Source of the DNA: Geodermatophilus sp. YIM 151500
GTDB taxonomy: Bacteria; Actinomycetota; Actinomycetes; Mycobacteriales; Geodermatophilaceae
Length of the DNA stretch: 64,000 nucleotides
Reading direction: 5' to 3'
Assembly (NCBI RefSeq): GCF_025716945.1
Contig: NZ_JAOVZT010000007.1
Location: 147,522 to 211,521 of the forward strand
Positions 27,248-32,831 of the stretch are shown here, piece by piece. Position numbers and translations under genes: made by a program. Each line of letters starts with the position of its first letter. Within the stretch, counting starts at the first letter, position 1. The notes under the pieces were generated by a model. The model was not told the DNA's origin. It saw nothing but the letters and a program-made list of their open reading frames with translations, and did no database searches.

Positions 27248-27544
27248 ATGTCGTCCGACGAGTCGATCGAGGTCCCCGTGCTCGAACTGTTCGGCCTCGC
27301 CGGTGCGCTGCGCGTCGGGGCGGGGACGGCGGAGGAGGCCCGCGCCCGGCTGGTCCCCGGCGCCCCGGTCGGCGGCCGGCTGCAGCCGGCGGTCGACGCC
27401 TTCCTCGCCGGGCACGGGCTCACCGCCCGCGGGTTGGCGGGAGAGCTGCACCGGCTCGACGCCGCCGTCGCCGAGGTCGCCGGCTCCTGGCTGGCCCTCG
27501 ACGCCGGGCTGCTCGTCCGCCGTGGCCAGGTGCGCACCCCGTGA
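27248..27544 (+). CDS. small helical protein, possible WXG100/ESX-like partner
   Basis: A 98-residue acidic protein predicted mostly helical: two helices around 11-35 and 45-85 separated by a Pro/Gly turn (VPGAPVGG). It ends in an SWLALDAGLLVRRG segment. There is no signal peptide. The stop overlaps the GTG of the following large gene (GTGA at 27541-27544), so the two are coupled. Size and helical hairpin layout are compatible with a type VII secretion target or chaperone, but the canonical WXG turn is not present. I do not recognise a named family. Confidence 0.55.
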   Translation: MSSDESIEVPVLELFGLAGALRVGAGTAEEARARLVPGAPVGGRLQPAVDAFLAGHGLTARGLAGELHRLDAAVAEVAGSWLALDAGLLVRRGQVRTP

Positions 27545-29676
27545 CCACGCCGCCGGCGCCAGTCCCGCTCGACCCGCCCCCGGAGGACCCGACCGCGCTC
27601 GACGACCTCGCCGGCGACGCAGGAGTCGCCGCCGATCGGCTGGGGGAGCTCGCCGCGCACCTGGGCGGTCCCGCGGCCGCGGCGCCCCGCTGGCGGGGTG
27701 AGGACGCGGTGGCGGCCACCGCGCGCGTGGCCGTGATCGCCGACCTGGCGGCGGGCAGCGCCGCGGCCCTGCAGCGCGCCGCCGCGCGGCTGGTGGCCCA
27801 CGCCGCGGAGCTGCGCGCCGTCCGCCGCCGGATCCGCCGGCTGCAGGAAGAGCAGGAGGAGGACTTCGCGCGCACGCGGATCCAGCTCTCCACGCCGCTG
27901 GACCCCGCCGGGTGGACCGCCACGGGACCGGTCCACGCGGCAACCGCCCTGGAGCGGCTCGCAGCGGCCGAGCGGGAGCGGAGCCGGGAGCACGCGCGCC
28001 TCCTCGACCGGCTGTCCGACGCGGACACCACCACCGTCCGGGCGCTCGCCCTCCCCGGCGGCGACGGGCCCACCGGCCCGTCGGGCGCGGTGCAGCGCTG
28101 GTCCGCCCACCTGGTGGCCGTCCTGCCCGCCTGGGGCCGGGACGAGCTGGCCGACCGCGGCCGGGCCCTCGCCGACGCCTTCCTCGCGGGGCCGGGCGAG
28201 GAGGAGCACCTGATCTCCCTCGACGCGCTCGAACGGCGCGCCCGCGCCGTCGGGTCCGCCGCCGGCGAGGAGGCCTTCGCCGCGGCCTTCCTGGGCGGTC
28301 TCGGCGTCGCCGGCCTCCGCACGGCGCTGGAGACCGCCGCGCACGCCGACCTGGGCCCCGGCAGCGCCTTCGCGCGGTTGCTCGCGCGGGCGCTGGCCGC
28401 GGCCGCCGATCCGGACGACGGCACCGTCGACGCCCCCGTCGCCGGCCTGCTCGCCGAGCCGCTCCTGTCACCGGCCGATCCGCCCGGTCCCGCCGAGGGC
28501 GTCGCCGGGGGCATCGCGGCCGTCCTGCTGGCCGGTGCCGGCGCCGGCGGCGCGCGGGGCGTCCCACCGGCGGTGGTGGCCTCGTGGGGGCGCGATCTGC
28601 TGGCCCGGGAGCGGGTGGCGGGAGCGCCACCGGCGGCGCCCCCCGGCACCGGTCCGGCGCGGCTCGACCCGGTGGGCGTCGTGCTGGACACCCTCGTCGC
28701 CGCGGGCTCCGCCGACGCCGGTGCGGCGCTGCTGGCCGACCGCGACACCTGGTCGACGCTGCTGGCGCGCGACCGGGGCGACGGCGGCGCACTGCTGGCC
28801 GAGGTGGTCGCGCTGGCCGGGCGGGCGGAGGGCGGAGCCGGCCAACGGGCGGTGCGCAGCGGCCTCGAGGCGCTCGGCGCGGGCATCCGCGACGGCGACC
28901 CCGCCCACCGGTCGGTCGACCTGGCGGTGGTCGCCCGGGTGGCGCCGGCGCTGGGGACGGCGATCGCCGGCCACGTCGGGCACACGGCCGAGCTGCTCGG
29001 CACCGCGCTCGACGGGCGGTCGACCGGCCCGGCCGATCCCGCCCTCCGCGGCCTGGGCCACCTGACCACCCACCGCGCCGCCGCCCACGCGGTGGAGGGG
29101 GCGCTGCGAGAGTGGGCGTCCCGGCGACCGGTGGAGCTCGGCCCGGCCGGGCCCATCGGCCCGCTGCCCGCCGTCGAGGTGCCGAGCGCGTACCTCGCCG
29201 TCCAGGAGTACGGCCAGCGCCTGGCCGCGGCGATGAACGGGTTCGACCGCCAGGCCGAGGCGTTGCTCCGCAAGCGGCGGTGGGATGCCACGGTGGGCCT
29301 GCTGTGCCTGGTGCTGCGCGGGCCCTGGGGCGAGGTGGCCGGTCTCGTCGAGCCCTTTGCCGCGCACTGGCTGCGGGCCGACGGCACCTGGGACGACGGC
29401 GCCGAGCGGGGCCTGCCCGTCCGCCCGACCGACGCCGGCCGCGCCGCCCTCGCGGCGCTGCCACCCGACCAGCGGGCGCACGCGGTGGCCGCCGCCCGCA
29501 CGGCGGAGACCTCCTTCCGGTTGACCGCGCACGCGCTCGGCTCGCCGGAACCACCGAGGTCCCCGGAGTGGAGCTTCTCGGAGGAGCTGCGGGAGGCGGC
29601 CCTGTCGGCGGCGACGGACCTCGGCCTCGGCCGCTGGGAGGAGCGCGACGGGCCGGAGAAGGGGAGGAAGCGGTGA
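27541..29676 (+). CDS. large alanine-rich helical protein with WXG-like N-terminus
   Basis: A 711-residue cytosolic-looking protein. Residues 20-110 are helical with a central RWRG (W51) turn, then a charged coiled-coil stretch (RRRIRRLQEEQEEDF), similar in layout to WXG100-like N-domains of type VII secretion substrates. A middle region (about 370-500) has DRDTWSTLLARDRGDGG and repeated helical segments resembling the DUF6571-like proteins of actinobacteria, from memory. The C-terminus is charged, ending EKGRKR. No enzymatic motif or toxin domain is recognisable. Translation is coupled to the small gene before it. Confidence 0.6.
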   Translation: MTTPPAPVPLDPPPEDPTALDDLAGDAGVAADRLGELAAHLGGPAAAAPRWRGEDAVAATARVAVIADLAAGSAAALQRAAARLVAHAAELRAVRRRIRRLQEEQEEDFARTRIQLSTPLDPAGWTATGPVHAATALERLAAAERERSREHARLLDRLSDADTTTVRALALPGGDGPTGPSGAVQRWSAHLVAVLPAWGRDELADRGRALADAFLAGPGEEEHLISLDALERRARAVGSAAGEEAFAAAFLGGLGVAGLRTALETAAHADLGPGSAFARLLARALAAAADPDDGTVDAPVAGLLAEPLLSPADPPGPAEGVAGGIAAVLLAGAGAGGARGVPPAVVASWGRDLLARERVAGAPPAAPPGTGPARLDPVGVVLDTLVAAGSADAGAALLADRDTWSTLLARDRGDGGALLAEVVALAGRAEGGAGQRAVRSGLEALGAGIRDGDPAHRSVDLAVVARVAPALGTAIAGHVGHTAELLGTALDGRSTGPADPALRGLGHLTTHRAAAHAVEGALREWASRRPVELGPAGPIGPLPAVEVPSAYLAVQEYGQRLAAAMNGFDRQAEALLRKRRWDATVGLLCLVLRGPWGEVAGLVEPFAAHWLRADGTWDDGAERGLPVRPTDAGRAALAALPPDQRAHAVAAARTAETSFRLTAHALGSPEPPRSPEWSFSEELREAALSAATDLGLGRWEERDGPEKGRKR

Positions 29677-29785
29677 CCGTCACCCGATCCGGTGACAAGT
29701 CGTCTGTTTACAACCACGGAGCGTGACGACATGACTGGCCGTCACCCGTTAGTGATCGACGGTGCTTGCCCGTCCGGGTGACGGG
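29671..29785. promoter_or_regulatory. cluster of GTCAC/GTGAC inverted repeats upstream of the repeat-peptide gene
   Basis: Five GTCACC or GGTGAC motifs lie in 115 bp: 29672-29677, 29679-29684, 29691-29696, 29742-29747 and 29778-29783. Three copies of the 10-mer CCGTCACCCG or its complement occur, and 29740-29749 pairs perfectly with 29776-29785. GTNAC inverted pairs are the kind of site bound by BldD, the c-di-GMP-dependent actinobacterial repressor. The assignment is inference. The 29740/29776 pair could also fold in the RNA leader. Confidence 0.5.
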
Positions 29786-29886
29786 AAGCAATGTGCCGGG
29801 TGCGGTCCGTACCGAACGACGCTCTGCCCCCGCGCGTGAGTGACTGCCGCACTCGTCGCAGTCGGTCGTGCCTTGAGGAGGACGTC

Positions 29887-30015
29887 ATGAGCAGCATGCA
29901 GAGCGCAGTCGTGTCCCGTCGCGGGGCCTCGTGGTCGCGGGGGGCCTCGTGGTCGCGGGGGGCCTCGTGGTCGCGCGGCGCCTCCTGGTCCCGCGGCGCC
30001 AAGTGGTCGCACTGA
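29887..30015 (+). CDS. 42-residue peptide with five RGASWS repeats
   Basis: ATG at 29887 follows GAGGAGGACGTC, one of the best ribosome binding sites in the window, which decides this start. The product is a leader of 11 residues (MSSMQSAVVSR), five hexapeptides RGASWS (the last RGAKWS) and a final His. It has no signal sequence, is strongly basic, and carries a Trp every six residues. Codons in units 1-3 differ synonymously from those in unit 4 (GGG/TCG versus GGC/TCC), so the peptide sequence seems selected. G-A-S-W repeats recall the tails of some actinobacterial subtilases, from memory. Function unknown. Confidence 0.7.
   Translation: MSSMQSAVVSRRGASWSRGASWSRGASWSRGASWSRGAKWSH
29920..30009 (+). 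repeat. five tandem 18-bp units (RGASWS)
   Basis: Five contiguous 18-bp units in frame. Units 2 and 3 are identical, unit 1 differs by one base, unit 4 by four, all synonymous, and unit 5 replaces Ser by Lys. Confidence 0.9.
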
Positions 30016-30025
30016 GCGGATCCCT

Positions 30026-30046
30026 CGCGTCGGTCCCTCCGACGCG
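30026..30046 (+). terminator. short hairpin after the repeat peptide
   Basis: An 8-bp perfect stem CGCGTCGG/CCGACGCG with loop TCCCT, 10 nt after the stop codon. A likely first terminator or mRNA-end structure. Confidence 0.5.
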
Positions 30047-30110: not shown

Positions 30111-30149
30111 CGAGCAGGGCAGCCGGTCGCCGACCGGCTGCCCTGCTCG
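30111..30149 (+). terminator. strong intrinsic terminator
   Basis: A 19-base perfect inverted repeat, CGAGCAGGGCAGCCGGTCG and its complement, separated by one base, so about 17 bp of stem with a small loop. It isolates the repeat-peptide transcript from the GGDEF-EAL gene 145 bp downstream. Confidence 0.85.
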
Positions 30150-30293
30150 CGTCCGGGGACCGCGCGATCGCCCCACGCCGGGTCTGCGGGCCCCGCGCCC
30201 GGCCGGGGGCGGGCCGATCCGCGGGGGCCGCCCGCGCAGGGTGCGCTGCTAGCCTCTGGCCGCCCACCTTCCCCGGGGAAACGCAGGTTTGCC

Positions 30294-32831
30294 GTGGCCG
30301 AGCCGGACGAGCGCGCGCCCGACCGGTCCTCGACCGATCGGAGCCCGTGGGCGGTGACGGCCGTCGTCCTGGCCTGCACCGTGCCCGTGGCCGTCGGGAC
30401 GCTGTCGCCGCGGTTGTCCTCGGTCGACGTCCTGCCGCTGCTCGCCGTGGCCCTGGCCATGGTCGTGGCCGAGTCGCTGACGTTGCGCTTCGAGTTCCGC
30501 TCGCACGGCTTCACCTGGTCGGCGAGCGAGCTGGCGCTGGTCATCGCGCTCGTGCAGATCGGGGGGACGTGGACGGCCATCGCCCGCGCGGTCGCCGTGG
30601 GGGTCGTCGTCCTCGCGCAGGGGTTCCCCCGGGCCAAGGTGCTGTTCAACGCCGCCGTCGCGGTGCTCGAGGTGTGCGCCGCCGTCCTGGTCCTCGACGC
30701 GCTGCCGGGAGGCGCGATCACCGAGCCGCTGACCTGGCTGGCGTACCTGGTCGCGTTGTTCGCCGCCAACCTGGTCGGCACGCTGCTCATCGCGGCGGCC
30801 ATCACCGCGACGGAGGGCTACCCGGGCCGCACGCTGTGGGCGCGGTTGTTCGTCCCCGTCCTGTTCGTCGGCCCGATGTCCGCCGTGGTCGGGTTGGCCG
30901 TGCTCAACCTGGTCGCGGTGACCGCCTGGACGTGGCTGCTGATCGTGCCGATCATCGTGGCGCTGGCGCTCCTCTACCGCCGCTTCGGCGCGGTGACGCG
31001 GGAGAGCCAGGCCCTGGAGCAGGTGTACGCGTTCGCGCGGCGGGTGGAGCAGCTGCCGGCCGACGAGGACGGCACCCCGCAGGTCGTCGAGGCGGTCCGG
31101 GAGCTGATGCACGCCGAGCGTGCCGCTCTGTGGCTGCCGCCGTACCTGGACGAGGAGCCGCGGCTGGTCGTCGCCGCGGAGGACGGCTCGGTCTGGTACG
31201 ACGGGCCCGGCGACCCGGACGACCTGTTCCGGCGCCGGGCCGTCGAGGGCGACGAGACCCCGGTGCTGGGATCGCTGGCCCGCGCCGACCGTCAGGAGGC
31301 CGCGGCGCTGGCGCGTCGGGGCGTCTCCGACCTGCTCGGGGCGCCGGTGGTCACGGCGGCCGGCGAGCCGGGCTACCTCGAGGTGTGCGACCGCCGCGGC
31401 GACAACCTCTCGTTCGTCGAGAGCGACCGGTCGGCGCTGGACTCCATGCTCACCCACGTCAACGCCGCCATCCGCCAGCAGCAGTTGCTCACCCAGATCC
31501 GCTACGACGCCGACCACGACCGGTTGACCGGGCTGCCCAACCGGCAGCGCCTGGCGGCCGAGATCGACCAGTTGCTGGCCGCGGACCCGGTCGGCGCCCG
31601 CGCCGGGCTCGTCCTCGCCTCGCTGGGCAACTACACCGAGGTCACCGACACCCTGGGGCACGCGGCCAGCGACGAGCTGCTGCTGGTGACCGCCGGGCTG
31701 CTGCGCGAGCACGCGCCCCCGCAGGCCTTGGTGGCGCGGATGGAGGGCGACCAGTTCGCCGTCCTGCTGCCCGGCCTCTCCCTGGCGGCCACCGAGCGCG
31801 CCGCGCGGCGGCTGCGGGAGGCGGCATCCTGCCGCGCCCGGGTGGCGGGGCTCGACCTCGAGGTCACGCTGACCATCGGGGTGGCGGCCGCGCCGGTGCA
31901 CGGCACCGACTCGGGCACCCTCATGCAGCGGGCCGACGTCGCCCTGCTGGCCGCCGGCGGCTCCGGCGGCGTGGCCAGCTACCACCCGGTGCTCGACCAG
32001 CAGAGCCTGCGCCGGCTGCAGCTGGGCACCGAGCTGGAGCAGGCGATGCGCGACGGCTCCATCGGTGTCGTCTTCCAGCCGATCATCGACGCGCAGAGCT
32101 CCGACATCGTCTCCGTCGAGACCCTCGTCCGCTGGGCGCACCCGCGCTACGGCCCGATCCCGCCCGACGACTTCATCCACCTCGCCGAGCAGATCGGCCG
32201 CATCGGCGCGCTGACCGACCACGTGCTCGACCTGGCGCTGGCGCGCTGCCGCCGCTGGCTGGACCAGGACATCGCGCTGTCGGTGGCGGTCAACCTGTCC
32301 GCGCACTGCCTCGGCGAGCCCGACCTGGTCGCACGGGTCCGCCGGGCGCTGCAGCGCCACGGCGTGCCGGGCGAGCTGCTCACCCTGGAGCTGACCGAGG
32401 GCAGCGTCGTGAGCGACTCGGTGCGCGGCAGCACGGTGCTCGGCGACCTGCACGCGCTGGGCCTGCGGCTGTCGATGGACGACTTCGGGACCGGCTACTC
32501 GTCGCTGTCGCAGCTGCGCCACCTGCCCATCGACGAGGTCAAGATCGACAAGTCCTTCGTGCTGGGCATGTCGACCAGCCAGGGCGAGTCGTTCATCGCC
32601 CGCTCGATCATCGAGCTCGCGCACAACCTGGGCCTCCGGGTGGTCGCCGAGGGTGTCGAGGACGAGGCGACCCGCAACCTGCTGGCCGAGATGGGGTGCG
32701 ACAAGCTGCAGGGTTTCCTGGTCAGCCGCCCGCTGCCGGAGGACCGCCTGGAAAGCTGGCTGCTGGCGCGCACCGGTGTCCGGACGGCAGCCCCCGGGGC
32801 GGCTCACCGGCGGCTGTTCGTCCGCACGTGA
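30294..32831 (+). CDS. membrane GGDEF-EAL protein, probable c-di-GMP phosphodiesterase
   Basis: An 845-residue protein. Residues about 18-225 hold roughly seven hydrophobic helices forming a membrane sensor. A GAF-like segment follows (about 240-395), then a GGDEF domain beginning DHDRLTGLPNR, and an EAL domain. The GGDEF signature reads EGDQF (484-488), so cyclase activity is doubtful. The EAL motif is ETL (609-611). Downstream motifs such as VNLSA, DDFGTGYSS, KIDKSF and VAEGVE are intact, so hydrolysis of c-di-GMP is likely. GTG at 30294 has a weak AGG upstream. Monocistronic, with a repeat element directly after the stop. Confidence 0.88.
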   Translation: MAEPDERAPDRSSTDRSPWAVTAVVLACTVPVAVGTLSPRLSSVDVLPLLAVALAMVVAESLTLRFEFRSHGFTWSASELALVIALVQIGGTWTAIARAVAVGVVVLAQGFPRAKVLFNAAVAVLEVCAAVLVLDALPGGAITEPLTWLAYLVALFAANLVGTLLIAAAITATEGYPGRTLWARLFVPVLFVGPMSAVVGLAVLNLVAVTAWTWLLIVPIIVALALLYRRFGAVTRESQALEQVYAFARRVEQLPADEDGTPQVVEAVRELMHAERAALWLPPYLDEEPRLVVAAEDGSVWYDGPGDPDDLFRRRAVEGDETPVLGSLARADRQEAAALARRGVSDLLGAPVVTAAGEPGYLEVCDRRGDNLSFVESDRSALDSMLTHVNAAIRQQQLLTQIRYDADHDRLTGLPNRQRLAAEIDQLLAADPVGARAGLVLASLGNYTEVTDTLGHAASDELLLVTAGLLREHAPPQALVARMEGDQFAVLLPGLSLAATERAARRLREAASCRARVAGLDLEVTLTIGVAAAPVHGTDSGTLMQRADVALLAAGGSGGVASYHPVLDQQSLRRLQLGTELEQAMRDGSIGVVFQPIIDAQSSDIVSVETLVRWAHPRYGPIPPDDFIHLAEQIGRIGALTDHVLDLALARCRRWLDQDIALSVAVNLSAHCLGEPDLVARVRRALQRHGVPGELLTLELTEGSVVSDSVRGSTVLGDLHALGLRLSMDDFGTGYSSLSQLRHLPIDEVKIDKSFVLGMSTSQGESFIARSIIELAHNLGLRVVAEGVEDEATRNLLAEMGCDKLQGFLVSRPLPEDRLESWLLARTGVRTAAPGAAHRRLFVRT

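Follow-up and report, generated by a model that had tools for sequence, protein, structure and literature searches.

This locus raises the question of what function is served by a 42-residue peptide built from a tandem Trp repeat, MSSMQSAVVSRRGASWSRGASWSRGASWSRGASWSRGAKWSH in translation, whose open reading frame lies at 29887-30015 (+ strand) of the window. The window is the whole stretch of DNA that was analyzed, with a length of 64,000 nucleotides. Five 18-bp repeat units were identified by TRF and from the translation at 29920-30009 (+), with limits at 29920-29937, 29938-29955, 29956-29973, 29974-29991, and 29992-30009. The initial annotation had described five RGASWS repeats; the count of five holds, and only the first four units read RGASWS, the fifth being RGAKWS. 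The peptide is rich in Trp and Arg and, as had been stated, basic with a Trp every six residues (pI ~12, hexad units). Units 1-3 are near-identical in DNA, and unit 4 is indeed written in other synonymous codons (cgcggcgcctcctggtcc). Neither the 773 kb of family loci nor the window contains a chain of at least six Trp residues at constant spacing, and the repeat of the peptide is thus far beyond what would be expected by chance. A second 18-bp tandem array is present in the window at 1112-1260 (8.3 copies, CCGTCGCCCGTCGCGCTG).

No signal peptide is apparent by inspection in the window peptide, and most of the other micropeptide versions also lack one. A Pfam search detected no Peptidase_S8 domain in the 42-residue product, and no protein family model matched the peptide above cut-off. 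When the peptide was modeled alone with AF2, no structure was obtained (pLDDT 62, pTM 0.13).

Counterparts of the peptide gene were found in ~96 genomes of the Geodermatophilaceae; in every case the gene that follows directly downstream is the same GGDEF-EAL gene, which is present in 96 of the 96 family loci. The family sample comprises Blastococcus, Geodermatophilus, Modestobacter, Klenkia, Goekera, and Trujillonella. A profile search matched 79 of 115 family genomes, more were added using a model of the 5′ leader, and the units were read for 96 genomes. Neither loss of the frame in relatives nor frameshifting indels among the repeat copies were seen, and the conservation of the frame in the ~96 related genomes bears out the proposal that the open reading frame is real. 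The peptide and the enzyme lie within a conserved synteny block that includes YajQ, TadE, rpmG, tRNAs, and hydratases, which counts against the use of their pairing in this family as evidence. An upstream open reading frame of ~710 residues (27544-29676), for which no match was obtained in Pfam or NCBIfam, is conserved but fast-changing and is missing from more than half of the family loci.

The consensus unit in the family is R-x-x-[K/R]-W-x, present in one to five copies. There are 61 different units among the 96 genomes, with RGAKWN, RGHKWS, RTNKWT, RNPRWG, and RGWRWS as examples. One genome contains two paralogous enzymes, each behind its own peptide, MSRNGRWGRNGRWGRNGRWGRS (RNGRWG) and MSRAGRWGRAGRWGRAGRWGR (RAGRWG). 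Pentads, (TAWNG)8 and (AAWNG)3, appear in another genus of the Geodermatophilaceae, and octads such as MSGQDRTTFDGNTWTFVDGNTWTFVDGNTWTFVDGNTWTFADGNTWT appear in sister families. RGASWS is an unusual unit in the family, having no basic residue at position 4. The last copy, RGAKWS, has the look of the ancestral form, in which case RGASWS would have spread by duplication.

Among 192 pairs of adjacent units from 95 arrays, 303 codon differences are synonymous and 9 are non-synonymous, and several of these nine stem from units that were read out of phase. At the positions that vary most among species (2, 3, and 6), the differences within arrays are 182 synonymous versus 3 non-synonymous; the mutational opportunity at these positions favors non-synonymous changes by 2.67:1. 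Purifying selection keeps each array uniform in every copy, and the earlier suggestion that it is the amino acid repeat that is kept, and not the DNA repeat, is substantiated by these counts. Near-identical units that are homogeneous within a species and divergent between species are also a feature of pheromone precursors. The synonymous bias within arrays, taken together with the diversity of units among the genomes, indicates that every lineage depends on its own precise unit and that the identity of the unit shifts between lineages. Such a pattern would be expected of a recognition code and not of a repeat with a generic role in binding or structure.

The proposed partner of the peptide is the GGDEF-EAL protein of 845 residues encoded at 30294-32831 (+). 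Pfam identified a GAF domain (31080-31472, +), a GGDEF domain (31509-31958, +), and an EAL domain (32031-32732, +). The motifs were read by eye: the GGDEF motif is degenerate (EGDQF) and the catalytic motifs of the EAL domain are apparently intact. The N-terminal membrane domain ('A3', 30294-31049, +) has no match in Pfam and is the proposed receptor of the repeat motif, from its AF2 model, the Foldseek matches, its fast evolution, and its covariation with the unit. Mean identity within the family is 44% for this sensor domain versus 83% for the rest of the enzyme, and the sensor domain diverges ~3.5 times faster.

Like MASE9 (PF20972) and the other MASE domains, the sensor domain is an N-terminal, multi-helix membrane domain found on GGDEF-EAL proteins and histidine kinases. 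The window domain itself, however, gives no score for MASE9, and nothing in the window's own genome matches it; the MASE9 cut-off is passed by two distant relatives of the domain, both on histidine kinases (L365 and L379). The AF2 model of the window domain, made with 66 relatives, has a pLDDT of 83.7 and a pTM of 0.82. The best high-probability neighbors in Foldseek are the S components of ECF transporters (TmRibU, ThiT, FolT, and CbiM); the matches have probabilities of 0.8-1.0, target-normalized TM values of ~0.5-0.67, and E-values of 0.05-0.5, which are not significant. ECF S components bind small ligands from outside. The resemblance is one of predicted fold, whereas the sensor domain is fused to signaling domains and is unrelated to the S components in sequence. 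With reserve, the domain may be described as MASE9-related and S-component-like.

Many c-di-GMP enzymes and kinases carry a membrane domain of the MASE type, and to our knowledge few of these domains have an established stimulus. A search of open-access papers yielded no ligand for MASE9. With the peptide, one MASE-type domain gains a candidate ligand that is paired with it genetically and appears to coevolve with it.

The distances between units correlate with the distances between sensor domains when the rest of the enzyme is controlled (r = 0.33, p = 0.001) in partial Mantel tests, which remove shared ancestry only in part. The reverse test, of the unit against the rest of the enzyme, gives an r of 0.007 (p = 0.42). 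The correlation of unit and sensor domain is 0.32 (p = 0.001) with the two hydratases and TadE also controlled, and likewise 0.32 (p = 0.001) with the flanking UTR controlled. None of the control sequences (the rest of the enzyme, the neighboring genes, and the UTR) correlates with the unit at p < 0.05. The alignment columns associated with unit positions at p ≤ 0.01 make up 25% of the sensor domain versus 8.8% of the rest of the enzyme, a difference of about three times. A fast-evolving sensor domain could simply be the better clock behind this correlation. An RNA-binding, membrane-binding, or polymerizing role, each of which had been considered in the initial annotation, has found no evidence here and fails to explain why the divergence of the units tracks the sensor domain. 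From the suggestion of a binding or aggregation module, binding is retained as the best fit and polymerization is dropped for want of evidence.

Arrays of the form (GASWS)n were detected in 25 of 296 genomes of Actinomycetota, and the membrane sensor domain was detected in 60 genomes in a draw of the same size from the phylum. Most of these arrays are located within a few hundred bases of a sensor-domain gene, usually directly upstream. A homogeneous W-repeat open reading frame lies within 700 bp of 36 of 67 sensor-domain genes, compared with 0 of 37 control GGDEF-EAL genes that lack the domain (Fisher p = 1e-9). These controls were drawn from the same order and not from the whole phylum. About half of the sensor-domain genes are without a recognized repeat partner at the strict threshold.

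The repeats are carried either on the tail of a secreted subtilase or on a stand-alone micropeptide. Among the (GASWS)n arrays, C-terminal tails of S8 subtilases predominate, and ten of the ten proteins whose tails were checked are Peptidase_S8 proteins. In the window's own genome, an S8 subtilase with a (GLSWS)n tail, part of which is masked as N, is encoded directly upstream of a second GGDEF-EAL gene (L233:6926-11607; G000:C6:10000-28700), the product of which has the same kind of N-terminal membrane domain. A third sensor-domain gene of this genome (L347; G000:C44:50600-56000) has no recognized repeat partner within 700 bp. The initial statement that similar G-A-S-W repeats occur in the tails of some actinobacterial subtilases was thus sound in the form of GxSW on S8 subtilases. 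The recommended check of the neighbors for S8 peptidases or c-di-GMP genes gave both: c-di-GMP genes adjoin the peptide gene, and subtilases carry similar repeats elsewhere.

Nine of ten sensor-domain proteins without GGDEF/EAL marks are histidine kinases, which contain GAF, PAS, or HAMP domains (L240, L242, L350, L357, L365, L369, L379, L382, and L384). Since the sensor and the repeat remain constant while the output is swapped between GGDEF-EAL and histidine kinase, the repeat most likely belongs with the input. An apparent Sec signal is carried by the partner in several genomes, where it is an S8 subtilase, a (GASLT)n protein, or a small protein with a single W motif. The (GASLT)n protein (MKSPLKV...AQA-(GASLT)n; L248, genome G496) has an apparent Sec signal followed by ~19 GASLT repeats, in which Leu replaces Trp, and is encoded upstream of a sensor gene. 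Ahead of the sister-family sensor genes L216, L211, L212, and L215 lie genes for small proteins that begin with a signal-like sequence and have a single W motif each (NSHKWY, as ...TPNSHKWY, LGSSWT, GVVWL, and DVVWT).

The peptide is probably one half of an undescribed peptide-and-sensor signaling system that is found across Actinomycetota. With a probability of roughly 0.6, it is a species-specific, multi-copy, Trp-centered ligand of the N-terminal membrane sensor in the downstream GGDEF-EAL protein. The pairing of the peptide with the sensor is well supported, and we infer direct binding, an extracellular location, an effect on c-di-GMP, and kin specificity. The repeat, or hexapeptides cut from the repeat, would bind the sensor domain from outside the cell, and binding would shift the activity of the enzyme. 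The affected activity would most likely be that of a c-di-GMP phosphodiesterase, given the degenerate GGDEF motif and the apparently intact EAL motifs. The ligand would in this way report kin or cell state, and c-di-GMP would be adjusted.

The literature search in open-access papers found no description of such a peptide-sensor pair, whose signaling function is a prediction. The wider proposal is a phylum-wide system of Actinomycetota in which species-specific tandem Trp-repeat ligands, encoded either by micropeptide genes or at the ends of secreted subtilases, act through an ECF-S-like/MASE9-like receptor on a c-di-GMP or histidine kinase output for pheromone-style kin recognition; it is put forward tentatively, at slightly under even odds. 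If the ligand reading is true, the system would be a bacterial parallel to the multi-copy pheromone precursors of fungi, and it could explain kin discrimination through c-di-GMP in developing soil and rock-surface actinobacteria.

The working mode may be analogous to that of the fungal repeat-pheromone precursors, such as yeast MF-alpha1, in which the units are processed by the subtilisin-family protease Kex2 (PMC5850478, PMC6339444). Both have several identical short units per precursor, a variable copy number, and species-specific units, and many of the versions found here are fused to a subtilase, the protease family to which Kex2 belongs. In contrast to the fungal precursors, the present ones come from bacteria, the window version lacks a secretion signal, and a processing site is not evident; in place of a GPCR, a MASE9-like c-di-GMP protein is proposed as the receptor, and there is no homology. 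The S8 subtilases with C-terminal GxSW repeats share with the window gene the Trp repeats and a place immediately ahead of a gene whose product has this kind of sensor domain. They carry pentads on a protease of ~450-700 residues, whereas the window gene encodes a 42-residue hexad peptide with no protease. The pentads of the subtilases and the hexads of the family share a theme and genetic partners, and they are treated here as similar, not as homologous, repeats.

The main rival to the ligand reading casts the peptide as an unsecreted accessory subunit, within the cell or on the membrane side, that tunes or stabilizes the sensor in its own cell. It holds this position because the family version of the peptide is without a signal peptide and export is the weak point of the ligand reading. 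Several other micropeptide versions likewise have no signal peptide, and the tight genetic pairing and the covariation with the sensor domain are explained equally well by an accessory subunit. Other lineages, however, carry the repeats on secreted subtilases or on a repeat protein that bears a signal peptide, and a uniform array that is diversified by species is more typical of recognition between cells. An accessory role is considered unlikely. For the proposed ligand, the unusual secretion route that had been suggested initially is possible.

It is improbable that the gene encodes the precursor of a RiPP or bacteriocin-like product, a modified or antimicrobial peptide for which the sensor would provide regulation or self-protection. 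A short, basic, Trp/Arg-rich, multi-copy core with a unit that varies by species would suit such a product, but the conserved neighborhood (TadE, YajQ, the enzyme, tRNAs, rpmG, and hydratases) contains neither a maturation enzyme nor an exporter, and such a precursor would not be expected to covary with the sensor domain.

The chances are slimmer still for a micropeptide that binds and sequesters c-di-GMP, as an analogue of the Arg-rich peptides of CleD. A tandem motif of Arg and an aromatic residue tied to c-di-GMP is common to both, here beside a c-di-GMP enzyme, and in CleD, c-di-GMP is bound by an Arg-rich tandem peptide of 28 residues (PMC5677366). The motif of the window family is different, however: the CleD motif [Y/F]XGP[D/E][R/K]R is absent from all of the units, and the units GASLT and SSSWS contain no Arg. 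CleD-type searches match almost only alphaproteobacterial CheY proteins (PMC5677366). The W-repeats are also paired with histidine kinases, and the species specificity is left unexplained by sequestration.

The claim of an excellent ribosome binding site was confirmed. The Shine-Dalgarno sequence GAGGAGG (29875-29881, +), which was located in the sequence, the UTR alignment, and the helix survey, ends 5 nt before the ATG, and in most orthologues it sits within a predicted hairpin (AUGCCU-GAGG-AGGCGU) in the helix survey. The conserved 5′ leader (29799-29886, +) was delimited from the alignment, the leader model, and the helix survey. Helix H1 (29800-29835, +) has the form GYGCGG...CCGCGC with an invariant GCTCTGYCCCCGCG, and helix H2 (29841-29864, +), GACTGC/GCAGTC, covaries with GACAGC/GCTGTC and GGCTG/CAGCC. 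H2 is misaligned by plain MAFFT, which leads to little covariation in RNAalifold; the covariation was revealed by a helix search of each sequence. Against Rfam 15 the leader gave no real match, only hairpin-like chance matches below the cut-off. A reading of the leader as a riboswitch was rejected: it is conserved and structured, but the window leader folds no better than shuffles (z 0.28). A promoter-like TTGCCC-17-CAATGT (29766-29794, +) was recognized by eye in the alignment, and its position is conserved in relatives; a consensus promoter scan of this very GC-rich DNA called no promoter for the peptide gene.

The two hairpins reported after the open reading frame are present at 30026-30046 (+), with an 8-bp stem (inverted repeat I10), and at 30111-30149 (+), with a perfect 19-bp stem (inverted repeat I1; fold z = -6.3). 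Neither is followed by a T run and neither is called by the terminator scan; the second is likely a terminator without a T run. The downstream alignment contains a conserved block, CGCTGCTAGCCTC (30244-30256, +), ~40 bp ahead of the start of the GGDEF-EAL gene, of which it is the probable separate promoter. The least probable of the explanations is that the frame encodes a leader peptide by which transcription of the GGDEF-EAL gene is attenuated (Trp/Arg codons and a terminator). A Trp codon does occur every six codons, hairpins follow the frame, and the 5′ leader is structured. However, all of the unit residues are kept uniform and not just the Trp/Arg codons, a conserved promoter-like block that is the enzyme's own lies beyond the hairpins, and comparable repeats are found as subtilase tails.

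In three Geodermatophilus genomes (L096, L235, and L236), a second copy of the promoter and leader is located ahead of another small gene, which encodes a short membrane protein in two of the genomes (70-77 residues, basic) and probably also in the third. The leader is a separable regulatory unit, since its second copy precedes a different small gene, and this arrangement suggests that the peptide and the other small gene are co-regulated.
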